The notes beneath the pieces are model-generated. The model saw only the letters and a list, made by a program, of their open reading frames with translations, searched no databases and was not told the DNA's origin. A DNA stretch of 64,000 bases, from contig NZ_PGEX01000001.1 in NCBI RefSeq assembly GCF_002797675.1, positions 248,001 to 312,000 on the forward strand, given 5' to 3'. The DNA comes from Hallerella succinigenes. Its GTDB lineage: Bacteria; Fibrobacterota; Fibrobacteria; Fibrobacterales; Fibrobacteraceae. The position numbers were made by a program, and so were the translations under genes. This document shows, one piece after another, positions 186 through 18,034 of the stretch (within the stretch, counting starts at the first letter, position 1; each line of letters starts with the position of its first letter).

Positions 186-3100
186 TTACATCAACGACAA
201 AAGTTTTGTTGATTGAATCGTTCCGTTCACTTTCAAGACCAGGTAGGTGGTTTTCATATTGATTCCTGACCAGTTCACTTGTACAAACTGTTCACCAGGA
301 GCAAGGGTTCCAGCGAAGATCGATTTTACCGGAATCCCCACAGCATTTACCAAATCCAGCGAAAGAGTCGTCCAATTTTCAAGAGTCAGCACCAGGCCTT
401 CATCCGTGCGGACAACCGGAATAGAGCCATCCCCGTGATAGCCATTATCTGGCGTTGTTACAGAGTTTTCGCCTGACTGCTCCGATGCAATCACGGAACT
501 TTCCGGCCAATCAGGAGAATCTCCATAGACGCGGTTTCCAAGGGAGTCGAACACGCAAATTCCACGCGCCTCTGCCATAGCCCCCGAAAGACCTGCATGG
601 CTTGGGTCGTCACTTGCGTTCCAAACATTCGCCCATTCGGAAAGATGTAGCGAGAAATTCACCGGGTCACCCATGACGTTCCCCGCCCCGATGGAACCTT
701 CGCAATGCACGCTAACCTGCCAACGTCCGCTGCCAAGGCTTTCCATGTCCGCCGTGGAACAGGAGGCCAAGTGATTTATATCCAATATGGGAGCGAGACC
801 CTCTTCTACATAGAAGTAGTAACGCACGTCAAAATTCCGAAGCACCACGCTACCCAGGTTTTCCACCTTGAAATGGATTTCGCTAGCCTGGTTGTCACTC
901 CGCATATCGAAAGCCAATACGCGGGCCTTCGCCATAATGGATGTCTCATCCTCCATCTCGGCACAGCTGCCGCCAATCAAATTGTTGTTACTATCAAGGA
1001 CGACGATTCCCTCGTCCTGCACAAATCCATATTCGGCAGCAGCCACATAGGACGGGTCATCTTCCGCATTCCAAGGAGACCAATCGAAATTGTAGAGGCC
1101 AAAATGAGGCCCATCCCCATAGAAAGCCGAATCCTGCGGTGCAAGTGCTGAATCTGTAAACTTCCACTCGGCATACCCCGTACGCGGACTTTCCGAATGG
1201 ACGGCAAGCAGGGTGGAGTCCTGCGGATAGAATGCCGACGTTTGGACCTGCGACGGATCCTCGCCACGGAAATAGTAACGGACGGAATAGCCTTTGATTG
1301 TTTCATCGGATACATTTTTTAACCTGATGCGGGGCCGAAGCATGGAGCGGTCATCAAAGCCTTCGTACTTCAGGAACGTCTGAATTTTGGGCGACACAGC
1401 ATCTGCCAGAGATTCATCAAAGGAACTTCTACCCCAGGCAATCATGGACGGAGAAACAGCCTTTTCCGCCAAGGCAATTCCACCGATTTGCACGCCTTCG
1501 GGCACATCCAGCGAAATCGTGTGAACCCCGCTAGAAAGCGAAAGTGTTACCCCGGAAATCTCTGTCGCCCTCCATGCACCGGAAAGTCCAATCTGCCCAG
1601 AAAGGAGGGCTCCTTCGCCGACGGAAATATTTGCACCCGTAAGATTTGCCGAACGGGCATACGCAACAACACTATAGTTACCCGAAGTCTCAACATTCAA
1701 TGTCATGCGAAGTTTGGAATGAGCGGAACTTGCGAGCAGGTAACGGTTTCCTGCAACGGCACAGGAGAACTGCCCTGAAAAGCCTTCCAGCATCTCCATA
1801 TCCTTTACGGCAACCACAATCACATCCGACAAGTCGCCGTCATCGGCTACAGGTACAGACAAGGCGAAAATCTCTTCATCGGACAGGGCTCCCGAATAGA
1901 GGCGGATATCGGCGATATTCCCGATATACGAATTATTAGACGATCCGCCTAAGGTCAAAGTGCCATAGAGTTCCCTTTCGGCATCAATCCCGTCAGGAAC
2001 GGACTTTGCACGTTCCCCATCCACATAGAACCTGACGCCACTAGAATCCGAAACAACCGCCACATGCTCCCAGGTCTTGGTCGAGGCGGAAAGTACCTCG
2101 CCAGAGAACCATTCCCGACCGCCCTCGGAAAGTTTCAACGATCGCCCCTTTTGTAAAAGCCGTATGGAAAGTCCACCGGAGCCTTTGAAGGAAAGGATTT
2201 CGTTCCAGGAATCGGACGAGTAACCCCTCTTGATACGGGCTTCCAGCGTATAAGAATCCGCCGTTCCCAAATCTACCCGGCCTTTTCCGGATGCAAAATC
2301 CGCGACATGGCCGAAATAGATTCCGACATCGCTTTGCCAAGGGCTACTCACGGAAGCCAGATTCAGGTCGTGTCCTGTTCCCAAGAACTCGTAGGCCGTT
2401 TGACCCGAGCCCTCCCGGGCGGGATACCAGAGCGCAAGTTCCGACGGATAGGGATAGATGTTATCCGTTGCAAAGGTCGTGTCAGCATGGTTATGCCCAT
2501 AGTCTTCGGCACGGAACGTAAGTCTAAGCCTGCACCCCAGACATTCCGTCATTTGCCTGCGGGTCAGTCTAAGCGCCGCGCTTACAGTTCCAGCGGAATC
2601 CGGTATCAGGCTCATTTTATCGAGCGCCACGCCGCCAAACTCCGGCGATACCGTCACGGCGGCGATACCGGATTCCAAATCCGAGACTTTCGCCGTCACT
2701 GTAAAGACCCTGTCCAAGATCTCGGAAGATTCCTGCACGTCAAAACCTTCGACGGACGGACGCATCGAATCTGTGTAAACTGACGGTCCAGCCACCTGCT
2801 GCTCCATTCCGAGCGTAGAAACGCCTAGATAGCGGGATTCGTAAATACCATCTGCGATTTTTCCGACTACGGAAGTTCCGAGAATCCTTGATCCGTCATA
2901 AAAAATCGTATCGGGATTGTCGCCATGAATTTCCGTGACAAGTTTACCGTCCCGGTAAAGGGAAACCGTTCCCACGCCAGGCTGATTACACTCCGCACCG
3001 TATGCCATGTAGCCATTGTCAAGACCGAGCCACAGGGAATCGGACGGGACGGAACAGGCGTATTCGGAAGGAACCGTAAGGGCCCGCGCCACAGCGGGAG

Positions 3101-6100
3101 CGGAGGGCAGTTCAACGGAATTGCCCAAGGAATCAGGTTCGGATTTCGCCACAACGAAAATGTAATTCGTGTCTATCACGCCATTTCGAGTAGGCAGCGA
3201 AACATGGGCATATCCGTTCAAGTCTACCGTAAAGGTCAACGGAACCGCTGGCGTCATGTCGCCCTTGCCATTCCACAGGGGATCGTCATCCACGTATAGG
3301 GCATAATTGCCTATTCCCTTCACTTTCACGATTCTTTCGGCGGATGCCGCCACTTCCGGCAAGATTTCCAGGTCGAAATCAGGGGTTTCCGCCAATACGG
3401 AAGATATGGCAGCAAATACAGAGAATGTCTTCGTCTCTGCGGAAATCAGGATGTATTCCCAGTTGTTCTCACCCGGATAGCATTCTTCAGAATTCCACGT
3501 ACTACACGTAGCCTTTTCCGAAGAACCCGTCGAAACGGCTGCTCTTCCATCGGCATTAAGGTAGCCGTACAAGGCGTTAGTCAGTGGGACGAATTTCTTA
3601 TTGTCAAAATCTATCTTGTAAAGCGTGAGAGTTTGCGGAGTGACACCTTTGGAATCCATTTCCGCCTTGGATATACGCATCTGTATTCTGGGAAGCTTTG
3701 TCGTATCATTGAACTCCATGGACGGCAAAACCTCCATAACAGGGCCCGTCAGCGGCATATTGTTGAATTCTTCAAACGGGTAATCGTCAACTTCGGCAGT
3801 CCGGACAGTGACATCCTTATTTTCCTGCAGCGAATTTGTCGGGAAGGTCACGGAAAGTTCGCCGAACAGGGAGTGGACCGTACTTTCGTTATCCGGATTT
3901 ACATCCGAACCCACATAAAGATTGTAAGTGTTATAATAAAGCTCGTCAACTTTACCACCCCAAGTCAGCAGGAACTGCGTATTACCTTGCAATCGGTTTA
4001 CATCAAACCAGGCAAGACGATGACTTCCAGACACGGAAGCTATCGTATCCTTAATCACGTAATAGGTGCCACCCTTAAGGTAGGAAAGCTGATATTTCTG
4101 TCCAGAAGTCAAGTAAGCCTTTAGCTCTACAAGTTCCTTGGGGCGGGCGACATCAATGTCCTTGGCATCCTTGAAGCTGATCACCCTGTCATCCAATGTC
4201 TTTTCACTGGAAATGGCAAAATGGGAATGTTCCGTGGAGTCTAGGTGCAGAATATCTATGCTATCTACTTTCGGTTCTTTTATCCAAGAATGAAAGCCCC
4301 GGTAAAAATATTTTAAGGGCAAATTTGCCGGTTTCATTTGCGTAGGAATCCGGGATACGCTATCCTGCGATTCGCGATAATACCGATTCTTTATTACCGT
4401 ATCCTTGGTATCAAAATAGAGCGTGTCGAATGCGGTGCTGAACCTTGCTTTTTTCGCATCACTGGCCGACAATCTTGCGTCTATTGATTCTACGGAGTAT
4501 CCGTTCTTTTCACCCTTCAGTTTAGCCAGCGTATCGAGAGAAACATAGAATGAAGCGTCCTTGTAATTCGAAGAATTCGGTTTTACAAGCAAGTTGCTGA
4601 CGGCAGTGGTATTTCCAATCTTAGATTCATCCAGATAGCCTATGTCGTTTGGAGCATGATAGTGCGCAGGGGAATTAACGGGATTCTTGATGATTCCGTC
4701 CGACGTGTAGGTCGTTTCCCAGAAGGCGTTGTCAAAATCATCGAGATAATAATGTATCTTGGAGCCACCCTTGTAGAACTTCTTGCAACCGGCAGTTTCC
4801 TTCACTTCGGACCATTCTTCATTATCGGCACATTTCCCTGAAATCGTGTCAAGTACATTGGTCGGTGCCGGGAAATCAACGATCTTTTCATACCCTTGAC
4901 TCCACATCATATTTCTGCCTACATAGAAATAGACGTAGCCGGCATTGTAAAGCGGTGTTCGAATGGAATCCGGCTCCCCATTCTTGCTCGTAACGGAAAC
5001 TTGGCATCTGGGGTTGTGGACATATCCGTCTATAGCCAACTGATAGGCGGCATCGTAATTCGTCGCATTGCCGTAGTCGCAACCAGTCGTTGATTCCAGA
5101 GGATTTCCCAACACAATGGCCTTGAAGTAATCTTTGTCGGAACGCGGTCCGTAAAATTTCAAGTCAAAATAGGAGGGCTGCTGATGGGTAGAATCCTCGT
5201 CGGCAAAAAGGAAGGTATTCTTTCCACCCTGCAACTCACTTGCTGGTAAAAAGGGCAGTGCCTGCATTTCATAGGGCGTTAACAATCCATACGTTCTGTC
5301 AAATTTCCAGGACGTACCGTCAAAATAGTTCCCCTCGTCAATAACCGATTTGTTTTTCAAGTCTTTTTGAAGGGCTGCCATATATCCGTCTGTTCCCGAT
5401 GCAGATTCGGCATAAATGGTCTTGTTCGTGTGGTCAAATCGAACGGTGCGATTTACAAGGTTATCCATGCCAAAGGGCGCATCCCAGTAGGAATCAGGGA
5501 TTTTGAATTTTATTGAAAAATTAGCCCGCTGATACCTATGGAATCCCTCTCTTGAGCAATGAGTATTTGGAGTGCCAAATTCATCAAAGAAAATCTCATT
5601 TTCTCCTGGATAGAATACCAAATCAAGTAGATTTTTGTTAGGATTATAATTAGTGGTTACAATATCTGCGCCATAGTCACAAGTATTTTCCAGGGCATCC
5701 TTTCCCTCATCTGCCTTACACCCCAATCCATTATTTTGATAACCGAATTGCACAGAATCAACTTTGTCTGTACCTGGCAGATAAAAGCCTTCTTTTTCCG
5801 AATAATCATCTAATTTCCATACTACATAGTTACTTCGTTTTGCTTTATTAAAATCATCCAAGGTTGAAATAGAATCCAATTGTTCCTCTTCAAGAAAATC
5901 TTGAAATCCCTTGAGCGTAAATACAACAATGTCAATATAGTTGTTCGCAGGATAATCCTTTCCGTCAAAACCATGGGATTTTTTACTCCAGATAAAAGGT
6001 AAGACATGTTCTCTTTGAGTAGATGAAAAGTCCAACACGCCAGCTGTCACGAAATCTTGTTTATTGAGGGTTCCCTCCTCACAAGTCCAATTATAATTCC

Positions 6101-9100
6101 CATTTATCTGTTCTACTTCGGCATGAAAATGTTCAACATAGACCAAATCCAGCTGTTTCCTGTGTCTCTTTATTGCCAGGCTAAACCGTTTGGGGGCATA
6201 GCCGTAGATTCTTTGCGTTCCCAAAACATCTGCATTCAGAGTCACCCCATTACGCAAATCCGTAGGCAAGTATTTTGCAGCAATATCCGTCCTCACAAGG
6301 TAATCTGGAACAGGGACATACCTATTTTTCCCGTTATCGTCAAAAGCCTCGGAAACAACCAAATTCGTGCCATCTTCAAAGGCTGGCACCATTTTTTTCA
6401 AAGAAATCTTGAGTTCGGTGGATGCTGTCTTTTTATGGGAACCTTCTACTTCGTAAGCATCAATCACAACCCTGTATTTTCCAGGTTCGACTGCGAACCC
6501 CTCCGCATCCTTTGCATCCCATAAAACCGAATAAGCGGTCCGTTTAGCATTCGCCCTTGTGAAGACGGAATCCTGTAGAGTTCTAACCACATTCCCTTCC
6601 GAATCCGTTATTTTGATGGACACATAGGCATCCCTGTACAGGATTCCATAAGGGATATTCAAAGATCCAAGATCATATAATTTCACCTCCTCCGTATCCG
6701 TAGTAGTATCCTCATCAACAGTATCGGAATTGAGCGAATCCGCAGAATTGTCGATAAGGTAGAACTCCGAAAGTTCAGGAAGCGATATTTCCATTTCCGG
6801 CAAAACAAGAGTCACCACGGTATCGATTAAAGTGGCAAACGGATTGTCGAGGCTATTCTCGACCACTTCCGCATGGAGAGTGACGCTACCTGATGGCGGA
6901 TACGTGTTCGTGGAAGAGATTCCATTCCAAACATAATTCAGTCCATAGCTTTTCGGGTTGACAGACCAGCCTGTATTCCAGGGATTTACGGAAGAGGACT
7001 GTTCTAGGTCCATAAAAGCAAATCCACTTTCCTTGTGAGAACCGAAATAGACAGGAATATTCGCATCGCTTATTGAACCATTTCCGGCAATACGAAATGC
7101 CCCAGAGGATTGCATCGTTAAATGTCCACTTGCACCAAAAAGAGTCATCAACTTGTCAGTATATGCAGGGAACTGCCAAATCGGATAACTAGACAAATAG
7201 GAGCCAGCAGCGCTTTGAACATAGGAATAATCGGCAATTTCATCCGAGACACTGCAACCCAAATCCATGTTGCCCAAACCATCCGAAGAAAGGCAAGTTT
7301 CTCCAAATGTATTTGAGTCAAAGGAAACCTTTATCGAATCCGAACTTTCAAGTCCTTTCCATTTCAGGTGATACGCGCCCTCTTTTTCGTAAAACCACAC
7401 TCCCCTTGACAAGGCCGTATCGGCAGGTTCACCATAAAACGGATTTGCAAAGACCCGTTCCATGGATTTGTCAAAAAGTCCGACACCCTTGGAATCCTCA
7501 GCATACAAATGCAACAGGTAATTATGATTGAAATTTCCTTCTAGGCGTAAGGACATTGAAAGAGAATCCTTGCCCACTTCCATAACCGCGGAAGAAATAT
7601 CAAAGACAACCTTTGGGGATTCTTCATTGACGGAAACCTCATCAACCGTCACCAAAGTAGAATCCGATTGCCATTCGCAGGTCTCACAGGAGCGGGTAGA
7701 AAGTTCGATATAGACTTTCGATTCGGAAAATCCCACATTGTGCAGGTAGCCCAAAACCCCTTCGGTACTCTGCGCCGTTTTGGATATGTAAGAACTATCT
7801 TCAGAACGGTTCGAGGCGACCACCGCAATATTGTCGGTCAGCCATTCATCGGAATTCTCGTAACGATAGCGAAGCCTGTAGACGGTCGTATTTTCGGCGC
7901 TTGCTGAAGCAGGCGGTGCAATTCCCACGATAGGGATGTATTCAGCCGTGAGAAATTCCCTGTCTTCTGCCGGAGATACGATTTCGGGGTAACGGTTCCC
8001 CACATGGAACAGATCCGTGCGGACACTTGAGTTCCCGGCGGCATCTAGGCATACGGCCTCGAGATAGCGTTTGCCATTTCGTTCTCCCACGGCAACGGCA
8101 GGAATATCAAACCTGACCGTATCGGTTTTTAGGATACCCTCGCTGACATTACGCCATAAGCCGTCAGCATCGCCTCCAAGAACGTGGTAATGGCAGCGCA
8201 TCCCCGTGCGGTTTGTCGCGATGTCATCCGATTCCGAAACATTGAGAGTCGCAGCGAAATCCTTCACCGAATCAGGATAAACAAGGCGGGAACTGACAAG
8301 GCTCACGATTTTCGGGGCGGTGCGGTCAATGCGGATTTTCTTTGTGTAATCGTATGCCTTTGTATTCTTCGCTTCATCACGAACGCTCGCCCTGAGGATA
8401 TAATCGCCATCTTGCAAGCGCATTCCCGACATTTCCGTCCATGTTCCATACCCCACATTACTTGCGTCCCTGACCCATACGGAATCACCAGCCCGGTCAA
8501 CTTTGGATACGTCATCCACATGCGCAAAGTCCCAACCGATAGTCACTGCGGTAGAATCGCGACCACCCAGAGGTTCCTTTACCAAATATTCCACTTGCAA
8601 CAGGCTATCTTCTGAAACATATTCCAAGTCCTGATTGCGGGAAGGACGTGAAAAACCTGCATACTTTTCAACTCCGAAGGAATCCACCGGAGACCCTCCG
8701 ACCTTTTCAAAATTCAGTTCGGGAGCGGTCCTGTCGATACGAAATTCGATTGTCTTTTCTGTGCGATTGAAACTATAATCGCCGAGGGTGCTCCAGTCAG
8801 AATCCCTGTCGTTTCCGCCAGCAATTTTTGTGACAAGACCCGTGGCGAAATCATACGCCTCCAGATTTGGGGCGGCATAGTCGATGGCAAGAGCCTTCAC
8901 CCGATAAAGCCCGTCTTGCAGGTTTTCCCTATTCGGAACTTTATCCCATGCCACGGCGAAATCTTTAGAAGTGACATCATATAACGAGGGCATCGACGTA
9001 ATAAGAGAAAATCCGTTGCCGTTGCTTTTCTCCAATTGCCACCGCATGGCCCGGATGTCAGGAATGGTAGAATCGCCCCAGGCAAAGCGGGCGATAAATA

Positions 9101-11858
9101 CTGAACTGTCAGGATTCATGCATGGTTTGTCAACCGAAAGTTCAAAATTTGGCGGCGTGACATCCACATTAAAGGGCACATCATAGACATCGTTGCTGTC
9201 ATTGCTTTCTCCGGCGGAATTGTGGGTAATGGCATTGAACACCCAATGATGTTCTCCTTCGGTTAGGTTGCTTTCGGAAATTCTAGAACGATAGACATTA
9301 CCACTGCCTTCACTCCGCAAAAAATCCATATCCTGCAGATTGCCAAAGGTTTTCCTAACACCGTCCGCAGTATACCACACGGAATCACGCATGCCCACCA
9401 CGGAAAAGCCCTGGTAATCAAGGACACTCGCGTAGGCTTCAAAACCGGAGATGGAATTTACCGCCACATCCCGCTTAGGCCACATAGGCACCAGCAGATC
9501 GTCCGTCGCCTTGAACAGATAATAGAACCTTTGCGTATTTGATAAACCTATCTTGTTCACCGTCGAAATCGTGACCGTGTTCTGGTTGTCCTTTTGGATA
9601 GCAAGAAGGTTGTCGTAGCCATATTTACGGGGTTCAAAATCGAACTGACCATTTTTCTTGACCGGATGTTTTTCTTTTCTTAGTTCAGTCCATTCACTAC
9701 CAGAAGTCCGTTTGTAAACCGTGCAGTTGTCGTTTGTATCATAGTCTTTTGAAACATCGCATTCCCATGCGATTTCCTCCTGATAGTTGAAGTTCATGCG
9801 GATCTGGCGCAACCTGTGCGGCATCAGGTCATCCACAACAAAGGAGTATTTTTCAATCCTGTCATCGGCAGTAATCGCAGGTACCTCATAACGTTCCACA
9901 TGACGAATGGGGACGATCGTGTCGTCAGGTGTTCCATCCGGTCTAAGCCCCGGCACACGTTCCCAACGATCCACCTTCACGCCCATCTTCGACCAGTCGG
10001 ATTCCGACTTGAAGCGGAGCGGGGACAAAGAAGAAACCGCTTGAGCCTTTTGATAGGAATTCAAATCTGTTGATGACTTGAAAAGACCTACAGCACAATT
10101 CGCCGCATCACGCGAACCGACATAATAGCAGTTGCGGTTCAGAGTGGATACATCACGTGCGGAATCACTCATCCCCTGAAGTTGATTCAATGTCGCAGTA
10201 TCGTTCAATGCCAAATTCACGAAGGGTCGCTCGTAAAGGAAGTCTTCCATGAGATAGGGCGTGTATGAAAAAGACCCATTTTGTAACGAATAGGTATTGA
10301 AACTTGCCTTCATTGTATCCAAATAGTCCCAATACAAAGAAATCTGGTGGGATTCCTCCATGTCGGATTTTCCAGCAATAGCGGCGGGGATAATAGAGGG
10401 AGCAGCCTGCTCCGCGCCAGCAAAGCCGAGGGCAATCTTGGCTGCATTTGCACACGGGGAGCATATGTAACCAAGGGTAAGGTCTAAATCCCGAATCTGA
10501 TTTGTTACGGATTCGATAATTAAAGCAACATCGCCTAAAGTGCCAGACGCGCTCGGAGCCGCATTGAAATACGCCCGTTCGACATCGATCATAGGATCAT
10601 TCAGAACATCGACTCCAGAACCATTGCTAGAAAAATCGGGAACTATGCTACTACCCGTTTGTTGTACGGGAATGCCCGCATAGCCCATCATGAACGAAGT
10701 CAGTGCATTGACATACCTTGCAGACATATCACCCGATCCTTCCAGTTGGGCGTTGTAATTCAAATACGGCATAGCAGCATAGTCAGGAATAAAGGTACGA
10801 ATTCCCCCGGCTAAACCATCGTCAAGATCGCCCGGATCCGACATCGTCATTCCATGCCGACCTGACAAAATTCTGATCATGGGCATGGAGTCAGGCTCAT
10901 AAGACAATCCGTTCAAAGAATCAATCGTGCCGAAACCAGTCTGTTTCGGGTCCACATAGTGGAGCAGAGGGTCTCTTTCAACATAGTATTCAGGAGATAA
11001 GGCCGTTGCGACGAGATTGCCAAGTTCTTTCCTCAACAAATTAGAGGATATTGTGGTGATTGAAAAACCGACATCGCCGACATTTCCCAGCAAGAGCATC
11101 TGCGGGACAACGGAAAGCGCTGAGGATTCAAGATTTTTCCCCAGATGTCCCCAAAAATCATCTATCGCATTCATTTTGGCAATCATGTTCATCGTCCCCG
11201 TACCCTCGTGCGGACTATCGAGCGTTATTATCTTGTCCACATCGCCATTGTAGAAGTTTCCTTGCACGTACTCTCGGGAAACGACTCCACCCATGCTGTG
11301 GCCGATAAGGATGTAGCGGGATGCAAGTTGACGATAGAGGTCTGGATTTTTTCGAATGAGTTCGAGAGCGGATTGACCGAAATGCACTGTACCACTATCA
11401 TCTTTGGCGATAGCTTTCATCTCCTGCGCTTCTTCAAATAGAGATCTTCGTTTTCCGAATTTAGAGAAGCCACTTGTTTGTACATTCCACATTCGGTCCC
11501 CCATTTCATGAGCGTTATTCAGTGAAGTGTTCGCTGGATTTGTAAATGAGCGCCAGTTATAGATATAAGAATTACGAGCATTCTCGTAATTTTTTTCACT
11601 TACAATTTCTTCGAATATATTTTTTGCAAGCCATTTGGTTATTCGGTTATTCGAGGTATAGTCCCCAAGTGTCGCATTACCCAAAAAAGTCGTATCCTCA
11701 TAAGCCGAGACATACTCCGAATTCTCAGATATTCCCTTATCAGAGCCATATGCCCCATGGACCATCATCACATTGTAATTTTCAATAGATTCCATCGGCT
11801 TGGGGATAGACCAAGCATATGCGATAATCAATGCGACTGCAATAAATATTTTTCTCAT
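186..11858 (-). CDS. Giant secreted multidomain lipase/esterase with carbohydrate-binding-like modules
   Basis: A 3,890-residue exported hydrolase. I start it at the ATG that opens the signal peptide MRKIFIAVALIIAYAWS, one base after the lipoprotein A stop; the frame extends 11 codons further upstream. Residues ~20-330 are an alpha/beta-hydrolase with the nucleophile elbow GHSMGG (Ser188) and, just after, TLDSPHEGTG, as in lactonizing/PGAP1-type lipases. Residues ~330-770 are shared with the truncated paralogue upstream. Ig-like domains follow, each opening with a D-x-T-x-P motif (near 898, 1040 and 1178), then a FlgD-type Ig domain (~1735-1815). Near the C-terminus are a LamG/concanavalin-like domain (~3150-3330), a CBM6/35-like domain (~3350-3475) and two related CBM3-like modules (~3490-3620 and ~3636-3775) with the RYYF and WNAxDDPS signatures. 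The last ~70 residues resemble a type 9 secretion sorting domain. It probably acts outside the cell or on its surface. Substrate unknown: lipid ester or polysaccharide-linked ester are both possible. Confidence 0.9.
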   Translation of the reverse strand: MRKIFIAVALIIAYAWSIPKPMESIENYNVMMVHGAYGSDKGISENSEYVSAYEDTTFLGNATLGDYTSNNRITKWLAKNIFEEIVSEKNYENARNSYIYNWRSFTNPANTSLNNAHEMGDRMWNVQTSGFSKFGKRRSLFEEAQEMKAIAKDDSGTVHFGQSALELIRKNPDLYRQLASRYILIGHSMGGVVSREYVQGNFYNGDVDKIITLDSPHEGTGTMNMIAKMNAIDDFWGHLGKNLESSALSVVPQMLLLGNVGDVGFSITTISSNLLRKELGNLVATALSPEYYVERDPLLHYVDPKQTGFGTIDSLNGLSYEPDSMPMIRILSGRHGMTMSDPGDLDDGLAGGIRTFIPDYAAMPYLNYNAQLEGSGDMSARYVNALTSFMMGYAGIPVQQTGSSIVPDFSSNGSGVDVLNDPMIDVERAYFNAAPSASGTLGDVALIIESVTNQIRDLDLTLGYICSPCANAAKIALGFAGAEQAAPSIIPAAIAGKSDMEESHQISLYWDYLDTMKASFNTYSLQNGSFSYTPYLMEDFLYERPFVNLALNDTATLNQLQGMSDSARDVSTLNRNCYYVGSRDAANCAVGLFKSSTDLNSYQKAQAVSSLSPLRFKSESDWSKMGVKVDRWERVPGLRPDGTPDDTIVPIRHVERYEVPAITADDRIEKYSFVVDDLMPHRLRQIRMNFNYQEEIAWECDVSKDYDTNDNCTVYKRTSGSEWTELRKEKHPVKKNGQFDFEPRKYGYDNLLAIQKDNQNTVTISTVNKIGLSNTQRFYYLFKATDDLLVPMWPKRDVAVNSISGFEAYASVLDYQGFSVVGMRDSVWYTADGVRKTFGNLQDMDFLRSEGSGNVYRSRISESNLTEGEHHWVFNAITHNSAGESNDSNDVYDVPFNVDVTPPNFELSVDKPCMNPDSSVFIARFAWGDSTIPDIRAMRWQLEKSNGNGFSLITSMPSLYDVTSKDFAVAWDKVPNRENLQDGLYRVKALAIDYAAPNLEAYDFATGLVTKIAGGNDRDSDWSTLGDYSFNRTEKTIEFRIDRTAPELNFEKVGGSPVDSFGVEKYAGFSRPSRNQDLEYVSEDSLLQVEYLVKEPLGGRDSTAVTIGWDFAHVDDVSKVDRAGDSVWVRDASNVGYGTWTEMSGMRLQDGDYILRASVRDEAKNTKAYDYTKKIRIDRTAPKIVSLVSSRLVYPDSVKDFAATLNVSESDDIATNRTGMRCHYHVLGGDADGLWRNVSEGILKTDTVRFDIPAVAVGERNGKRYLEAVCLDAAGNSSVRTDLFHVGNRYPEIVSPAEDREFLTAEYIPIVGIAPPASASAENTTVYRLRYRYENSDEWLTDNIAVVASNRSEDSSYISKTAQSTEGVLGYLHNVGFSESKVYIELSTRSCETCEWQSDSTLVTVDEVSVNEESPKVVFDISSAVMEVGKDSLSMSLRLEGNFNHNYLLHLYAEDSKGVGLFDKSMERVFANPFYGEPADTALSRGVWFYEKEGAYHLKWKGLESSDSIKVSFDSNTFGETCLSSDGLGNMDLGCSVSDEIADYSYVQSAAGSYLSSYPIWQFPAYTDKLMTLFGASGHLTMQSSGAFRIAGNGSISDANIPVYFGSHKESGFAFMDLEQSSSVNPWNTGWSVNPKSYGLNYVWNGISSTNTYPPSGSVTLHAEVVENSLDNPFATLIDTVVTLVLPEMEISLPELSEFYLIDNSADSLNSDTVDEDTTTDTEEVKLYDLGSLNIPYGILYRDAYVSIKITDSEGNVVRTLQDSVFTRANAKRTAYSVLWDAKDAEGFAVEPGKYRVVIDAYEVEGSHKKTASTELKISLKKMVPAFEDGTNLVVSEAFDDNGKNRYVPVPDYLVRTDIAAKYLPTDLRNGVTLNADVLGTQRIYGYAPKRFSLAIKRHRKQLDLVYVEHFHAEVEQINGNYNWTCEEGTLNKQDFVTAGVLDFSSTQREHVLPFIWSKKSHGFDGKDYPANNYIDIVVFTLKGFQDFLEEEQLDSISTLDDFNKAKRSNYVVWKLDDYSEKEGFYLPGTDKVDSVQFGYQNNGLGCKADEGKDALENTCDYGADIVTTNYNPNKNLLDLVFYPGENEIFFDEFGTPNTHCSREGFHRYQRANFSIKFKIPDSYWDAPFGMDNLVNRTVRFDHTNKTIYAESASGTDGYMAALQKDLKNKSVIDEGNYFDGTSWKFDRTYGLLTPYEMQALPFLPASELQGGKNTFLFADEDSTHQQPSYFDLKFYGPRSDKDYFKAIVLGNPLESTTGCDYGNATNYDAAYQLAIDGYVHNPRCQVSVTSKNGEPDSIRTPLYNAGYVYFYVGRNMMWSQGYEKIVDFPAPTNVLDTISGKCADNEEWSEVKETAGCKKFYKGGSKIHYYLDDFDNAFWETTYTSDGIIKNPVNSPAHYHAPNDIGYLDESKIGNTTAVSNLLVKPNSSNYKDASFYVSLDTLAKLKGEKNGYSVESIDARLSASDAKKARFSTAFDTLYFDTKDTVIKNRYYRESQDSVSRIPTQMKPANLPLKYFYRGFHSWIKEPKVDSIDILHLDSTEHSHFAISSEKTLDDRVISFKDAKDIDVARPKELVELKAYLTSGQKYQLSYLKGGTYYVIKDTIASVSGSHRLAWFDVNRLQGNTQFLLTWGGKVDELYYNTYNLYVGSDVNPDNESTVHSLFGELSVTFPTNSLQENKDVTVRTAEVDDYPFEEFNNMPLTGPVMEVLPSMEFNDTTKLPRIQMRISKAEMDSKGVTPQTLTLYKIDFDNKKFVPLTNALYGYLNADGRAAVSTGSSEKATCSTWNSEECYPGENNWEYILISAETKTFSVFAAISSVLAETPDFDLEILPEVAASAERIVKVKGIGNYALYVDDDPLWNGKGDMTPAVPLTFTVDLNGYAHVSLPTRNGVIDTNYIFVVAKSEPDSLGNSVELPSAPAVARALTVPSEYACSVPSDSLWLGLDNGYMAYGAECNQPGVGTVSLYRDGKLVTEIHGDNPDTIFYDGSRILGTSVVGKIADGIYESRYLGVSTLGMEQQVAGPSVYTDSMRPSVEGFDVQESSEILDRVFTVTAKVSDLESGIAAVTVSPEFGGVALDKMSLIPDSAGTVSAALRLTRRQMTECLGCRLRLTFRAEDYGHNHADTTFATDNIYPYPSELALWYPAREGSGQTAYEFLGTGHDLNLASVSSPWQSDVGIYFGHVADFASGKGRVDLGTADSYTLEARIKRGYSSDSWNEILSFKGSGGLSIRLLQKGRSLKLSEGGREWFSGEVLSASTKTWEHVAVVSDSSGVRFYVDGERAKSVPDGIDAERELYGTLTLGGSSNNSYIGNIADIRLYSGALSDEEIFALSVPVADDGDLSDVIVVAVKDMEMLEGFSGQFSCAVAGNRYLLASSAHSKLRMTLNVETSGNYSVVAYARSANLTGANISVGEGALLSGQIGLSGAWRATEISGVTLSLSSGVHTISLDVPEGVQIGGIALAEKAVSPSMIAWGRSSFDESLADAVSPKIQTFLKYEGFDDRSMLRPRIRLKNVSDETIKGYSVRYYFRGEDPSQVQTSAFYPQDSTLLAVHSESPRTGYAEWKFTDSALAPQDSAFYGDGPHFGLYNFDWSPWNAEDDPSYVAAAEYGFVQDEGIVVLDSNNNLIGGSCAEMEDETSIMAKARVLAFDMRSDNQASEIHFKVENLGSVVLRNFDVRYYFYVEEGLAPILDINHLASCSTADMESLGSGRWQVSVHCEGSIGAGNVMGDPVNFSLHLSEWANVWNASDDPSHAGLSGAMAEARGICVFDSLGNRVYGDSPDWPESSVIASEQSGENSVTTPDNGYHGDGSIPVVRTDEGLVLTLENWTTLSLDLVNAVGIPVKSIFAGTLAPGEQFVQVNWSGINMKTTYLVLKVNGTIQSTKLLSLM

Positions 11859-11859
11859 G

Positions 11860-12759
11860 TTAATATTCCAAACGAATGACGGTCCCATCATTTCGATAAA
11901 ATTCTAATTCCCTATTCCCCGTCCATTTTACATCAGAACACATTATTTCATCTTTTGTCAAAGAACAAACTCTCACTCCCAGCTCCATCATATTTCCACA
12001 AAAACGACCATCAAATAATTTTTCCATCGGAGCAAAAATACTATCCTTTTCATTTTTCAATACAAAACTATTTCCGTCTTTTTCATCCAACAGCAAGCAA
12101 TACACTTCATCATCCCAAGCCCTTACATCGTCACACACCTTAATCCATTCCAAATTTTTATCCAAACGTTTGTAAGTCAAAGTTCCAGAAATCGTATCCA
12201 AGACTGCATATTGACAACTATCTTCTCCAGCAGAGAGATTTCCTCCCAGCGCGATAAATGTTCCATCCAGCCATTGGTGCATTCGTTCAATTTTAGAAGA
12301 ATGCGAACAACCTTCATTCTTTCTTGAAATCTTCATTTCATGCGCAGTTTCGCCAATCTTCCATAAAAGCATGTTTTTTTCTTCCCAACGCCAGAAAATG
12401 GAATCCGTCAGTTGATACCAACGATAGCCGCCTCTTTTATTCGTGAGGGAATCAGTCCATCGAGGTCCATCTTCTTGCACTCGATAATTATAGACAAGCA
12501 ATCGGTCATGCCCACATGACGATTCTTCGCTGTACCCATCACCGATTGACCACGTTTCGGTAGTTTCAAGCCACTCTCTGCAATCGTACGCAACGACCAG
12601 GGAATCATCTATGAAACCAGCAATCAACGGAGTACCCCTGCCATCACTCCATTTAAACTCCACCCTGTCGCTGCACCCCCACATGCATACGCATGCAAAC
12701 GCAGTTATGGCAACCACAATCAGCCTTTTAATTTCAAACTTTTTCAACAGATGTTTCAT
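11860..12759 (-). CDS. Lipoprotein A, partner of the giant lipase
   Basis: 299 residues with a type II-like signal ending in CMWGC, which makes Cys29 the probable lipidated residue; Trp at -2 is unusual for a lipobox. The rest is rich in Trp, Asp and paired Cys, with many short beta-strand-like segments such as DDVRAWDDEVYCLLLDE. I do not recognise a named family. An AAGGAG ribosome binding site lies about 10 nt before the ATG. The stop is one base before the giant lipase start, which implies coupled translation, and the ATG overlaps the stop of truncated lipase copy 2 (ATGA). A full-length paralogue lies at 13535-14431 and remnants of a third at 16787-17198 and 17885-18034, so the gene has been duplicated together with its lipase. 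A dedicated chaperone, anchor or immunity/inhibitor role is inference. Confidence 0.85.
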   Translation of the reverse strand: MKHLLKKFEIKRLIVVAITAFACVCMWGCSDRVEFKWSDGRGTPLIAGFIDDSLVVAYDCREWLETTETWSIGDGYSEESSCGHDRLLVYNYRVQEDGPRWTDSLTNKRGGYRWYQLTDSIFWRWEEKNMLLWKIGETAHEMKISRKNEGCSHSSKIERMHQWLDGTFIALGGNLSAGEDSCQYAVLDTISGTLTYKRLDKNLEWIKVCDDVRAWDDEVYCLLLDEKDGNSFVLKNEKDSIFAPMEKLFDGRFCGNMMELGVRVCSLTKDEIMCSDVKWTGNRELEFYRNDGTVIRLEY

Positions 12760-13517
12760 ACTCTGTTCTCCTTAAAGTTTCTCCTGCAAATTTTCATACA
12801 AAATAACAGCAATCCAAGTCGCATATTCAAAGCACCGGTTCCTTCGTGAGGACTATCAAGCGTGATTATCTTGTCCACGTCGCCATTGTAGAAGTCGCCC
12901 TGCACGTACTCGCGTGAAACGACTCCACCCATGCTGTGCCCAATAAGGATGTAGCGAGAGGCTAATTGACGGTAAAGATCAGTATTTCTACGAATCGTAT
13001 CAAGCGCTTCCTGACCATAAATGTATTTTCTTTCAGTAGAATCATATACAGAAGCCTTAACTTCCTGAGCCTCTTCCATCATTGCACGACGATGTTCATA
13101 TCTGGTCGCTGGCATGAACCACGTCCTGTCGCCTAGTTCAAAGGCATTATTATAGGAACTGTTCGCCGGATTGGAAAACGAACGCCACTGATAGACATAG
13201 GAATGCTTTGGGTGCACATCATCCACATTCATTTCCGGCTCATCGAATACCTTTGTCGTAAGCCAGTGTAATAAACGAGGTTCATCATCAAGATTTTCAT
13301 GATAGCGTCCCAACGCAGCACCATTATCTAAGGCTTTCGTCGCAGCGTAAGCCTCCTTAGTTTTCGTGGTATCCGATATATCTAGGAACCCTTTTTCTTT
13401 ACCATACGCTCCGTGAATAAGCATCACGTTATAATTTTCAATAGATTCCATTGGTTTGGGAACGGACCAGCATTCACAACACACCGCAGCAAACAGTACA
13501 ATTATCAACTTTTTCAT
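12756..13517 (-). pseudogene. Lipase copy 2, truncated after the active-site region
   Basis: The first ~225 residues match the giant lipase: signal peptide starting MKKLIIVLF, then PKPMESIENYNVM, RSFSNPANSS and the elbow GHSMGGVVSREYVQG, ending with DSPHEGTGALNM. Similarity then stops abruptly and the frame runs through the leader of lipoprotein A to a stop that overlaps its ATG. A deletion seems to have joined the middle of this gene to the next lipoprotein leader. The start is the ATG after an AGGAT ribosome binding site, not the ATG seven codons upstream. The piece keeps the nucleophile Ser but has lost everything downstream, including the region expected to carry the catalytic His, so a working enzyme is unlikely. 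It may still be translated as a short exported protein. Confidence 0.85.
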
Positions 13518-13534
13518 ATTTATCCTACTGAAAA

Positions 13535-14431
13535 TCAATATTCAACCACTAACTCATCATTTTGATAAAATTTTAATCCATCACTATTACCATACCATAT
13601 TACATCAGAACAGGTAATTTTATCGTTATTTATATCGCAGATGCTCCCACCCAATTTAATCATATCACCCCAAAAACCGCCAATCGCAAATTTTCGAGGA
13701 GCAGGGATTGTATCATTTTCATTTTTTAAAACAAAACTTATTTCTCCTTCATCATCAAGAATTACGCAATACACATCATCATCCCATGCCCGCACATCAT
13801 CACACTCTTTAATCCATTCCAAATCATCACTCAAACGTTTAAAAGTTAATGTTCCCGCAATCGTATCCAGAACGGCATATTGGCAGCCATAATCACTCGC
13901 ATTCAATGAATTATCGCTACGGGCAATAAACTTTCCGTCAAGCCACTGTTTTACCGAGGCGATTCCAAATTCATCCGAGCAACCTTCTATTATTTTTTTC
14001 AACTTTATTTGATGTTGCGTTTCTCCGACTTTCCACAATCTGATTGAATTCGGCATATCACCGCCCCAAATAATTGAATCCGTCATCTGCCCGCGAAAGG
14101 CATTTGTCATGTTATATTCACCAAGGGTATCGCACCATCTCGGACCATCTTCCTGAACGCGGTAATTGTAAACACATAAACGTTCGTGCCCGGATTCAAC
14201 GACATCCCAATATGGTTCAAAGGTCCCTTCATGAGACTCCGTCCTCAATTGGTAGCTTCCGACCATAACCAAGGAGTCGTCAACAAAGCCCACAATTTCC
14301 GCACCCGTAAAGCCCTCATTCCAATGAACCCTATCTTCCGAACACCCCCACATGCATATGCATGCAAGTAAAAGTATTCCAATGATATACAATGGCGTTT
14401 CGATTCTATTTTGATAAAATTTCTGTTTCAT
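13535..14431 (-). CDS. Lipoprotein B, paralogue of lipoprotein A
   Basis: 298 residues from the ATG that opens MKQKFYQNRIETPLYIIG; an ATG 14 codons upstream (14473) overlaps the stop of lipase copy 3 but gives a poor signal peptide. The signal ends in CICMWGC (Cys30), as in lipoprotein A. Shared blocks include YNYRVQEDGPRW, CQYAVLDTI, GTLTFKRL and DDVRAWDDDVYC. It is clearly homologous to lipoprotein A but diverged along its length, so the duplication is not very recent. It is intact although the lipases on either side (copies 2 and 3) are broken, so it is an orphan partner. Its stop is 17 nt before the copy 2 start. Retention of an orphan lipoprotein is what one expects of an immunity-like function, but this is inference. 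Confidence 0.85.
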   Translation of the reverse strand: MKQKFYQNRIETPLYIIGILLLACICMWGCSEDRVHWNEGFTGAEIVGFVDDSLVMVGSYQLRTESHEGTFEPYWDVVESGHERLCVYNYRVQEDGPRWCDTLGEYNMTNAFRGQMTDSIIWGGDMPNSIRLWKVGETQHQIKLKKIIEGCSDEFGIASVKQWLDGKFIARSDNSLNASDYGCQYAVLDTIAGTLTFKRLSDDLEWIKECDDVRAWDDDVYCVILDDEGEISFVLKNENDTIPAPRKFAIGGFWGDMIKLGGSICDINNDKITCSDVIWYGNSDGLKFYQNDELVVEY

Positions 14432-14469
14432 GGAATAATCCCCAAAATGTGAGCCAAAGATAGAAATTA

Positions 14470-16787
14470 TCACGCTATCTTGTTCACCGTCGAAATCGTG
14501 ACCGTGTTCTGGTTGTCCTTCTGGATTGCCAACAAATTGTCATATCCGTACTTTCGCGGTTCAAAGTCGAACTGGCCGTTTTTCTTGACAGGGTGAACGT
14601 ATTTAATGGTATCGCCGCTCGCGGAATCAAGAATCGCATTCCATTTCCCACCACCGGAGCGTTTGTAAACGGTGCAGGCATCGTTTGCTTCGGGATCCTT
14701 CGTAATATCGCACTCCCAGGCGATTTCTTCTTGGTAGTTGAAATTCATGCGGATTTGACGCAACCTGTGAGGCATCAAGTCGTCCACGACGAACGAGTAC
14801 TTTTCAATCCTGTCATCGGCAGTAATTGCAGGAACCTCGTAACGTTCCACATGACGGATGGGGACACCCTTCTCATTTTTAGAACCGTCAGGATGCAAAC
14901 CATCTACTTTTTCCCAACGGTCCACCTTCACCCCCATCTTCGACCAGTCGGATTCCGACTTGAAGCGGAGTGGCATTGTCAAGCCCGAAAGAGGCTGTTT
15001 CTTTTGTGTTGAATTCAAGTCATTTGCCGACTTGAAAAGACCTATGGCACAGTTTACACCGTTCTTTGAACCAATGTAAAAGCAGTTGCGGTTGAAGGTA
15101 GAAACGTCGCGAGCGGAATCGCTCATGCCCTGGAGCTTATTCAAGGTCGCAATATCGTTCAATGCCAAATTCACGAAGGGTCGCTCGTAAAGGAAGTCCT
15201 CGTAAACATGGACAGAATCGTTCAGCATCCAATTCTTGAAGCCCTTATCAATCGGCAAATTATGGGATTCCGACAGATCCGCGATACCAGCCTGAACCAC
15301 GTCCACGATCGTGCCCGCAAGCAACGCGGCGAGCTGGACAGCAAGAGCAGACTTGACGGCATCGGCCATTTCCGACGAAATTAGCCCCAAGGAATTGTCG
15401 ATTCCTTTCATCTCTTGCTGAACGGCAGTAAAGGAAATCTCGAGCAGTTTGCCCAGTTCCCGGCTCGCTTTCGGCGCCGCATTGAAATATTTTCTCGCGA
15501 CATCGACCATTTCGTCATTCAGCATATCGACATTCTGAGCGTCGCTCGATGTCGCGGGAACGATGTTGCTGTCAGTCGTAAGCATCGGGATCCCTGCAAA
15601 TCCCATTACGATCGACGTGACCGCATTGACGTACCTCGTCGAAACGTTTCCGTCTCCATTCAGCTGAGCAAGTGGATTTGCCAACAGAAGCACGTCGCGC
15701 GGTCACCCATATAATAAAAAGCAGCAAGGTGGTCCTGCGGGTCCGTGAAAGTCATGCCGTTTCGACCGGCCATTATCCGGAACATGGGCAGCGAATCCGC
15801 GATATAGGGGCGCCTGTTCAGCGAATCGATCGTCTGGAAGCCATGCTTTTTAGGGTCCACATAGTGGACAAGCGAATCCGTACTGAAGTACTTTTGCGGG
15901 GACGCAAGCGTTGCCGCCGCGTCGCCGATTTCATCCAAGGCGAGATAACACGCAAGTCCAACGACTCCAGATATAAGGTTTCCGAAATCCCCTGTCAGGA
16001 CAAGAGAGAAAAAAGCGGCGGAACTGACGGTATTGGGAACGGATTTTAAAATGTTCTTTTTTATGTTTTCCCCAAAATCCTCGCTCACGTTCTTTGCCAC
16101 GATCATGTTCAACGCACCGGTCCCTTCATGCGGACTATCAAGAGTGATTATCTTATCAACGTCTCCGTTATAGAAATTGCCCTGCACGTACTCGCGAGAG
16201 ACGACTCCGCCCATGCTGTGGCCAATAAGGATGTAGCGAGAAGCCAGTTGTCGATAGCGATCGGGATTTTGGCGGATAATTTCTAGTGCGGTTTGGCCCT
16301 TCTCTGTTGTATCAATCCTTATTCCAGAATCAGTTACAACCTCTTGTGTAATAATAGCTTTCACTTCCTGAGCCTCTTCAACCAAGGCACGACGCCCTCC
16401 AAATTTCTTATCCTTGTTCCACGTTCTATCGCCAAGTTCAACGGCGTTGTTCTTGGAGCTATTGGCAGGATTTGTGAATGAACGCCATGAATAGAGATAA
16501 GAATCATGCACGTTTCGCATGCTATCCGGTTCTTCAAAAGCATTTTTACTTAACCAATAGGTCAATCTATTTTCGCTATCATATTTACCAATGTGACCTT
16601 TACCACGAAAACTTGTATCTCGGTTAGCTTCAACTAAAGAATTATCCTCTTTAATTCCCTTATCCGCTCCCAAGGCTCCATGAAGCATCATCACATTGTA
16701 ATTCGTGATACTTTCCATCGGCTTAGGAATAGACCAAGACATAGATGTAAAAGCTACCAAAAGAACACACGAAATTCATCGTTTCAT
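14470..16787 (-). pseudogene. Lipase copy 3, nonsense codon plus frameshift, truncated at its end
   Basis: Homologous to residues 1 to ~770 of the giant lipase. Three lesions are visible. The natural ATG at 16785-16787 gives Met-Lys-Arg and then an in-frame TGA at 16776-16778, followed in frame by the rest of the signal peptide (ISCVLLVAFTSMSWS). Around 15660-15693 the frame shifts: the first frame ends shortly after YYMGDR, and the matching sequence LANPLAQLNGDGNVSTRYVN continues in another frame. Similarity ends at TVTISTVNKI with a stop right after, so the Ig, LamG and CBM-like parts were never copied or were deleted. The nucleophile motif GHSMGG is still readable. The broken start overlaps the stop of the lipoprotein C remnant, which repeats the lipoprotein-lipase order of the other units. 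Confidence 0.88.
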
Positions 16788-17198
16788 TATTTCGCCCTTT
16801 TCAAACCCCAATAGATGATGTATACATCATCTTCTCTATTTTTAAAAGAAATTCCACTAGGCAAAGCTGACGCGAAGCACTTAATTTTTCCACTCTCTAA
16901 CCGGCAAAACATCTCGTTCCAGCAAGAGAATGTTCCCCTGAAATTGCAAAACAGCGCCCGCAGTCCAGAAATAATCATTTTCCAAGACGTGTCTCAAGCT
17001 ATCATTTACAAACAACGAAGACGTCCGTTCTTCTTTATCAAATTTCAAGCAATAAACATCCTTCCCCCATGCCCGCACATCATCACATTTCTTAATCCAT
17101 TTTAAATCACTATCCAATACGCCATACTGACATGATTCATTTCCAAGACTATCCATATCAAACCCTTTTACATCAGGGGGAACGTTCCTTTCTCCCAT
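16787..17198 (-). pseudogene. Lipoprotein C, C-terminal remnant with frameshift
   Basis: The part reading SCQYGVLDSDLKWIKKCDD and VRAWGKDVYCLKFD lines up with the second half of lipoproteins A and B (CQYAVLD, EWIKECDDVRAWDDDVYC). The match then moves to a second frame (EMFCRLESGKIKC, then a tail ending GLKRAK), so there is at least one frameshift near 16900. No start codon or signal peptide is attached. The stop TAA overlaps the ATG of lipase copy 3, the same junction seen in the intact pair. The missing N-terminal part is probably the fragment at 17885-18034. Confidence 0.75.
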
Positions 17199-17235
17199 TG
17201 GGGAAGCTTACAAAAATGGGTAGCTGACACAAGCG

Positions 17236-17427
17236 CTATGGATTCTTAAACTGCAAAATTTCTTCGGCAGTCAATTCAGAAAAATCCTTTCCAACACGCT
17301 CGGCATATTCGCCGAGTTTAAAAATATTCAACTTGCTTTTGGGCGGATTTTTGTAAGGATCTGGAGTCGCCATATACTCTTCCATAGAATCCGCCAAGAT
17401 AACAGCGGGTCTTCTAATTCCATTCAT
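17236..17427 (-). CDS. Small hypothetical protein (63 aa), second gene of a pair
   Basis: Reads MNGIRRPAVILADSMEEYM, then a Pro/Lys-rich segment and a helical C-terminus (LGEYAERVGKDFSELTAEE). The ATG is 14 nt inside the 3' end of the upstream 121-aa gene; an alternative ATG at 17469 would overlap more. No family recognised. The overlap and small size suggest a two-gene cassette, possibly antitoxin-like, but nothing in the sequence proves that. The pair sits between the two halves of the lipoprotein C relic. Confidence 0.5.
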   Translation of the reverse strand: MNGIRRPAVILADSMEEYMATPDPYKNPPKSKLNIFKLGEYAERVGKDFSELTAEEILQFKNP

Positions 17428-17779
17428 AGGTATAGACCTCCAAAAGTTTTTGTGCAGCACCCTTATCAAGCATAAAATGAAATGGGTGCAGAATCCCTAA
17501 AAAAGATGCTCCAATAACTCCAATATAGTGATTCAACAACTCTTTGTTAAGGGCAAATCCGTAAACCTTCAAGGCGAGAGCATAGACCTCAACTTCTGTG
17601 GGGACATTGATCCAATTGATTCCCCACCCATCCTTTTCCTTGAACTTTCTCAGAAATGAGCGGCTTTCGATCTTGAACACTACAGTTTCTTTGATTTCGC
17701 CAGTTTTGATATCTTTGAGACAAGGAACAATTTCATCCAGCCAAATGTCAACACATCCGCCATTCAGCGTATCTTTCAT
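17414..17779 (-). CDS. Hypothetical protein (121 aa), possibly an internally deleted acetyltransferase-like protein
   Basis: Starts MKDTLNGGCVDIWLDEIVPC and ends QKLLEVYTYEWN. From memory of Fibrobacter accessory genes, the beginning and end resemble a longer GNAT-like protein whose middle (the acetyl-CoA-binding part) is missing here between EVYALALK and FALNKELLNHY. That comparison is recollection, not a search, so treat it as tentative. The start follows a purine-rich site (GGGGAGGAGCG) and a leader that resembles those of the ORF6N genes at 41932 and 44511. It overlaps the following small gene by 14 nt. Confidence 0.5.
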   Translation of the reverse strand: MKDTLNGGCVDIWLDEIVPCLKDIKTGEIKETVVFKIESRSFLRKFKEKDGWGINWINVPTEVEVYALALKVYGFALNKELLNHYIGVIGASFLGILHPFHFMLDKGAAQKLLEVYTYEWN

Positions 17780-17884
17780 CTTTCGCTCCTCCCCGCCTAC
17801 AAGCTTAAAAAGGCAGGGCTTTAGGTTGTTTTACATCGCGCGTCGAAAGCAAAATTCTACACACTTGTGCACTAATGTAAATTA

Positions 17885-18034
17885 CTAGAATCGGATTGTC
17901 AAGAGCGCCGCACTTCTTCTATCCTCCCAGTCATAATACGGATCCCCACACCCCCACATGCATACGCATGCAAACGCGAGCATCAAGCCAGCAATCAATC
18001 CTTCAATCCCAAACTTGTTCAACAGATGTTTCAT
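17885..18034 (-). pseudogene. Lipoprotein C, N-terminal remnant
   Basis: A 49-codon frame, MKHLLNKFGIEGLIAGLM through CVCMWGCGDP, almost the same as the signal peptide of lipoprotein A, then a stop. The leader upstream (18035-18059) is nearly identical to that of lipoprotein A at 12760-12784, including the AAGGAG site. The fragment is most simply the 5' end of the gene whose 3' end is at 16787-17198, separated by the segment holding the two small genes. Confidence 0.75.

Follow-up and report, generated by a model that had tools for sequence, protein, structure and literature searches.

Why should a bacterial chromosome keep a row of small lipoprotein genes in good order when most of the large lipase genes set between them are broken? 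The question is raised by the first 18 kb of a stretch of 64,000 nucleotides (hereafter the window) from Hallerella succinigenes, a member of the Fibrobacteraceae whose complete genome measures 3.13 Mb (contig NZ_PGEX01000001.1, positions 248,001 to 312,000). Between window positions 186 and 18034 the genes lie on the minus strand and are transcribed in this order: a broken lipoprotein C, a broken lipase 3, an intact lipoprotein B, a fragmentary lipase 2, an intact lipoprotein A and a lipase of 3,890 residues. Comparison with related genomes suggests that this is probably a polymorphic effector-immunity locus of reversed polarity, in which the effector carries its variable head at the N-terminus, the lipoprotein confers immunity and orphan lipoproteins are retained.

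A first-pass annotation, made from the window alone, had described these genes as a decayed tandem array of three alternating lipoprotein and lipase units on one strand. The alternation was borne out, as was the close spacing between each lipoprotein stop codon and the following lipase start (1 nt for A, 17 nt for B and 13 nt for C, the last only when counted from the ancestral end of lipoprotein C). The unit formed by lipoprotein A and the giant lipase is indeed whole and lipoprotein B is intact; lipoprotein C has to be added as broken, a ~740-bp element replacing its residues ~45-180 and its tail being frameshifted. Two of the three lipoproteins in the window are thus intact and one of the three lipases, and the repeat copies are 70-85% identical over 200 nt or more, far above chance. 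The annotation had also called lipases 2 and 3 broken. This holds for lipase 3, in which codon 4 is an in-frame TGA, the frame shifts near residue 346 and the end lies directly before lipoprotein B. Lipase 2 is another case: its first 226 codons are free of internal lesion, and at codon ~226 the reading frame enters the leader of lipoprotein A. Simple decay is the wrong description: it misses the recurrent joints, the exchangeable cassette of lipoprotein and lipase head, and the independent history of the lipase trunk.

The locus was sought in 168 genomes of the phylum, 111 of them Fibrobacteraceae, and about 100 loci were annotated with iterated profiles. Among the 111 Fibrobacteraceae genomes, 59 carry the lipoprotein and 58 the lipase head, the recurring unit being a lipoprotein followed immediately by a PGAP1/lipase-like N-terminal domain; the lipoprotein was absent from the searched genomes outside this family. 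The same locus is present in Fibrobacter intestinalis ATCC 43854, in metagenome-derived genomes of F. succinogenes, and in Fibrobacterota of horse, yak and termite-gut type. The two partners fare very differently. Lipoproteins are intact in 123 cases and broken in about 7. Downstream of the 123 lie a complete lipase (26), a lipase losing its trunk (12), a fragment ending near residue 226 (10), a head frameshifted near its end (5, plus 1 at a contig edge), a stub (41), nothing (25) or a contig edge (3), which leaves 66 intact lipoproteins with a stub or nothing behind them. Breakage or absence of the size-matched lipase head, although it offers the smaller target, was counted in 71 of 119 units, against the ~7 broken lipoproteins (Fisher P of about 1e-21, or 2e-14 without the class in which nothing follows). 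The dependence runs one way only. Lipases lacking any lipoprotein had been named beforehand as evidence against a partner role; in all 26 complete lipases of this subfamily counted, each with its upstream region present, an intact lipoprotein lies directly upstream, the exceptions being broken lipases or contig ends. Moreover, the complete lipase is the last (3') unit in every multi-unit array that has one, and only this last unit reaches ~3,900 residues.

This pairing rule is limited to the subfamily, because distant giant lipases (3.5-4.1k residues, trunk ~30% identical; loci L161-L179) have no relative of the lipoprotein within their 1-4 kb of upstream sequence. Other lipoprotein genes adjoin several of these distant giants, sometimes in tandem (L165, L168, L174 and L175), and are possibly a second partner family. 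Heads of the present lipase family also occur in records titled Paludibacteraceae and "archaeon" (L208, L213), for which misbinning of contigs is a more likely explanation than transfer. In a Fibrimonas-type genome, a compact protein of 1,245 residues with an N-terminus resembling the lipase head stands between two lipoproteins of the present family (L148, G034:C107).

Orphan lipoproteins are conserved, and orphans decaying as fast as the lipases, the other outcome named in advance, were not what the comparison returned. The median ratio of nonsynonymous to synonymous substitution (dN/dS) is 0.20-0.26 for orphan-orphan pairs and 0.19 for partnered lipoproteins. In two pairs of genomes the orphan state itself is common by descent: G082 and G110 are 92% identical over 2.85 kb including the stub and the sequence downstream (dN/dS 0.23), and G092 and G093 are 94.6% identical over 1.88 kb (dN/dS 0.17). 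These ratios indicate that the orphan lipoproteins are under purifying selection. The same measure applied to live and truncated lipase fragments is uninformative, most pairs being near saturation and maybe older than the truncation.

What the two proteins may do was approached through their sequences and predicted structures. The giant starts with a Sec-type signal sequence (by inspection), and its head matches the PGAP1 and palmitoyl-thioesterase models of Pfam around the motif GHSMGG. Across 28 aligned heads S188, D214 and H504 never vary, and these are the putative catalytic residues; lipase fragments ending at residue 226 are probably inactive as they stand, because they are without the H504 region. 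An AlphaFold2 model of the head (mean predicted local distance difference test, pLDDT, 79) finds its best fold matches in bacterial family I lipases (E value of about 1e-3), and the pair Tle4-Tli4 is among its weak matches. The lipoproteins possess a signal peptide and an invariant lipobox cysteine (C29) and are unmatched in Pfam and NCBIfam. Fold searches with the model of lipoprotein A (pLDDT 87) return mostly beta-propellers, generic and all of low template modelling (TM) score, and a search of the sequences of solved structures with the lipoprotein gave nothing useful.

The best of the alternatives assigns to the lipoprotein the task of folding or exporting the head as its dedicated partner, much as Lif foldases serve family I lipases, and takes the arrays for the leftovers of head replacement. 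Strict adjacency and specific pairing would be expected of such a partner, and some of the family I lipases closest in fold to the head do need an adjacent foldase gene. However, a partner deprived of its client should decay, whereas intact lipoproteins stand before a stub or before nothing in 66 cases, and the orphans evolve under purifying selection. A Lif foldase in the strict sense was rejected on both family and fold, the lipoprotein having no chaperone match in Pfam and its model being all-beta and propeller-like where Lif is helical. A folding or export role is accordingly judged unlikely.

Evidence for an exchangeable cassette comes from comparing evolutionary distances. Distances between lipoproteins correlate at 0.91 with those of lipase residues 1-180, at 0.61 with residues 227-570 and at 0.14 with the trunk (not significant). 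In sliding windows along 21 giants, the correlation with the lipoprotein stays at 0.4-0.9 up to residue ~570 and falls to 0.04-0.2 beyond 600, the switch lying at ~570-650, and correlations with the trunk run in the opposite direction. Class 1 alone keeps this contrast (0.76 for the head, 0.21 for the trunk). When partners were shuffled within arrays, the correlation between lipoprotein and lipase dropped from 0.87 to 0.58 on average, and the observed value was reached in none of 2,000 trials. Individual genomes illustrate both directions of exchange. Beyond residue 790, G104 and G105 match the window giant at 62-88% identity, but through most of the head at 17-50%, and their lipoprotein is a different one; in G078, the reverse case, identity to the window giant is 56-96% for residues 60-500 and 31-56% for the trunk. 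Lipoprotein and head thus make up a single exchangeable cassette, and the history of the trunk is independent of it.

The cassettes are cut at fixed places. Of 88 ends of lipase homology, 12 fall at profile positions 222-226 and 8 at 765-775, with a chance probability below 1e-6 for either cluster, although common descent links some of the events to one another. The codons for ...HEGTGALNMQ lead, at the first joint, into a leader of ~60 bp and the ribosome-binding site of the next lipoprotein. The identity of this leader averages 77% across genera, against ~52% in the flanking coding sequence, and the joint pattern was found in 11 of the 111 genomes, once in each, and never in a reversed-pattern control. 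G027 and G016 have in common a cassette of 1,774 bp, 96.7% identical, that starts where a lipase remnant ends and reaches lipase codon ~230; a catalytic domain follows in G027, whereas the joint ends it in G016. Direct repeats of the conserved block 1 flank the cassettes, and homologous recombination could therefore return an upstream head to the trunk. Recombination of orphan Rhs modules back onto their main gene is reported in PMC3967940.

Other features of the lipoprotein genes were seen as well. The leaders have in common a near-palindrome, TATTTTGTAnnAAAATA (L062:5514-5560, L062:9050-9100, L075:2250-2290 and the joint leaders), which is perhaps an operator or promoter core; a promoter scan of the array gave about what is expected of shuffled sequence. 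The lipoproteins of L062, L064 and L067 look mosaic, their N- and C-terminal parts apparently recombining around the block LxWIxxCDDVRAWG.

Silent N-terminal cassettes beside a single full copy, together with two proteins that are mosaic and highly divergent, also recall a store for antigenic or receptor variation, with lipoprotein and head as variable surface structures that evade phages or grazers, or a lipoprotein serving as altered receptor, as beside the BSAP toxins. This second alternative is quite improbable. The invariant serine, aspartate and histidine of the heads point to an enzymatic function; a store should keep both halves of the cassette, but only the lipoprotein half is kept; and the lipoproteins that come after the residue-224 joint each bring a leader and a ribosome-binding site of their own. 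Plain tandem duplication with later decay, the extra copies having no selected role, would fit the relatedness of the window copies and the death of lipase 3 and lipoprotein C, but is hardly credible: lipoproteins within an array are mostly 20-50% identical and have near-identical cassettes in other genomes, and random decay of a duplicated operon was rejected on the recurrence of the joints and the conservation of the orphans.

Exchange of a partner and an effector domain on a fixed trunk, an effector never found without its partner, and a partner often found without its effector are taken as the marks of an effector-immunity system. The effector-immunity reading had already been raised in the first-pass annotation, and comparison strongly favours it; immunity itself is the part that we infer. 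As in polymorphic toxins, there is a constant trunk with an exchangeable effector domain, an adjacent co-inherited partner gene, and orphan cassettes; the effector domain is not C-terminal, the variable lipase domain being N-terminal and the trunk C-terminal. The effector would be the Sec-exported giant, active and variable in its N-terminal lipase or esterase head, with the ~3,000-residue trunk as its carrier. Toxicity to bacteria through a target lipid, as yet conjectural, would be countered by the lipoprotein encoded directly upstream, anchored in the envelope, perhaps propeller-like, and predicted to bind and neutralise its own head. A new cassette of lipoprotein and head may be joined to the one trunk by recombination in two conserved blocks (residues 180-226 and 680-790). 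The previous cassettes would then shift upstream, cut at the recombination joint; their lipase parts would erode, and the old lipoproteins may be kept as protection against neighbours still using the old head.

The trunk matches FlgD_ig and Laminin_G_3 above the Pfam cut-off. The source genome encodes type IX machinery (SprA at 1,209.6 bits) and at least 23 Por_Secre_tail domains, the C-terminal domains of type IX cargo, above cut-off. Display of the giant, from its C-terminal end, probably depends on the type IX secretion system, a step advanced conditionally because this end matches weakly. A suggested reason for the N-terminal position of the putative toxin is that type IX secretion holds its cargo by the C-terminus, which leaves the N-terminus as the exposed end.

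Several points weigh against this interpretation. The NCBIfam model of the type IX C-terminal domain does not match the C-terminus of the giant, and hhalign against the domains of the same genome aligned 64 columns at the C-terminal ends with a probability of 46%; the giant could not be placed in that domain family on these results. Tight linkage by itself gives some correlation between lipoprotein and head, which does not show binding, and the lipoproteins might serve something other than immunity. Several array members (L127, L134, L085 and L062; 784-835 residues) keep the entire catalytic domain and lose the trunk at the second joint, and these could be short secreted lipases. Finally, the genomes compared are for the most part drafts assembled from metagenomes, with one genome for each species.

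In the guts of herbivores, Fibrobacter are major degraders of cellulose. The literature searched describes no contact weapon for Fibrobacter and, to our knowledge, none has been described for the Fibrobacterota. An effector-immunity locus would give the phylum a system of interbacterial competition and, with it, a new family of immunity proteins without match in Pfam or NCBIfam and a toxin of reversed polarity, perhaps for the reason that secretion anchors the protein by its opposite end. Sharp, testable predictions on who protects against whom would also follow from the cassette logic. The coordinates of the individual features are collected in the table.

Table. Features of the lipoprotein-lipase locus, in window coordinates.
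Feature	Position	Strand	Description
Lipoprotein C, 5' remnant	17906..18034	-	Signal peptide and lipobox, profile positions 1-44
Insert in lipoprotein C	17160..17895		~740 bp; reading frames of 121 and ~62 residues; related copies elsewhere in the genome
Lipoprotein C, 3' remnant	16801..17135	-	Profile positions 190-262, then frameshift; ancestral stop TGA 16801-16803
Lipase 3, N-terminal part	15660..16787	-	Codon 4 is TGA; frame shifts near residue 346
Lipase 3, remainder	14470..15693	-	Remaining catalytic domain and conserved block 2; end is the recurrent joint near residue 770-780
Lipoprotein B	13535..14473	-	Intact, 312 residues from GTG, lipobox Cys
Lipase 2 fragment	12759..13517	-	Residues 1-226 (putative nucleophile Ser, without putative catalytic-His region), then 17 codons of lipoprotein A leader sequence
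Conserved joint/leader	12760..12821	-	End of block 1 and lipoprotein A ribosome-binding site; same joint in 10 further genomes
Conserved block 1, lipase 2 copy	12822..12956	-	Residues ~180-226, GHSMGG...LDSPHEGTG
Lipoprotein A	11860..12759	-	299 residues; beta-propeller-like in AlphaFold2 model (pLDDT 87)
Giant lipase	186..11858	-	Complete, 3,890 residues; start at upstream ATG 11891 possible (3,901 residues)
Lipase head of giant	10152..11858	-	N-terminal, residues 1-569; invariant S188 (GHSMGG), D214, H504
Conserved block 2 region of giant	9492..10151	-	Residues ~570-790; head-to-trunk switch of sequence history
Trunk of giant	186..9491	-	FlgD-Ig, LamG; C-terminal domain with weak resemblance to type IX secretion signal

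The insert in lipoprotein C is, on sequence grounds, a dispersed small-gene element. Elsewhere in the source genome, DNA related to it at 78-84% lies at 836.9-837.7 kb, 833.9 kb and 2,412 kb, and a piece of 28-35 bp was found at four more places.

The combination of a lipase with a small envelope immunity protein is established for the lipase effectors Tle of the type VI secretion system (T6SS) and their periplasmic immunity proteins Tli. The Fibrobacteraceae effector differs in having its own signal peptide and a trunk of ~3,000 residues, and no sequence relationship was found; VgrG/PAAR-type T6SS domains are absent from the giant protein, no search for a T6SS in the genome having been made. 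In the T6SS clusters of V. cholerae, each newly arriving effector-immunity module replaces the effector and leaves the earlier immunity gene in place, so that an orphan array builds up (Kirchberger et al. 2017, PMC5361080). The likeness lies in old immunity genes beside one current pair. Here, however, no T6SS link was seen (its presence in the genome was not searched for), effector fragments persist and end at fixed joints, and the array lies upstream of the effector. Contact-dependent inhibition (CDI; CdiA/CdiI) and Rhs systems combine, according to PMC3150448 and PMC3967940, a constant trunk, a variable effector domain, an adjacent cognate protein and orphan modules. They resemble the present locus in the truncated orphan modules strung beside one complete gene and in recombination through conserved sequence. 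Their polarity is the opposite: the CDI/Rhs toxin is C-terminal with its orphans on the 3' side, whereas the Fibrobacteraceae head is N-terminal with its orphans on the 5' side, on a trunk without Pfam match to CdiA haemagglutinin/filament or RHS repeats. The TANFOR polymorphic toxins of Bacteroidetes are associated with type IX secretion, TANFOR being an N-terminal trunk marker (PMC7073777). They share with the present locus the superphylum and a presumed type IX association, but their polarity is again reversed and Pfam reported no TANFOR match. The odds are about even that the locus represents a mirror-image class of polymorphic toxins, with a type IX C-terminal anchor, an N-terminal exchangeable toxin, an upstream immunity gene, 5' orphan cassettes and an exchange joint made of block plus leader. 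Acquired interbacterial defence in Bacteroidales, as outlined in PMC12247911 and PMC10470768, shows gut bacteria retaining orphan immunity genes against effectors that they do not carry. That defence is directed at T6SS effectors, whereas the Fibrobacteraceae orphans belong to the effector locus itself, as its displaced upstream portion.

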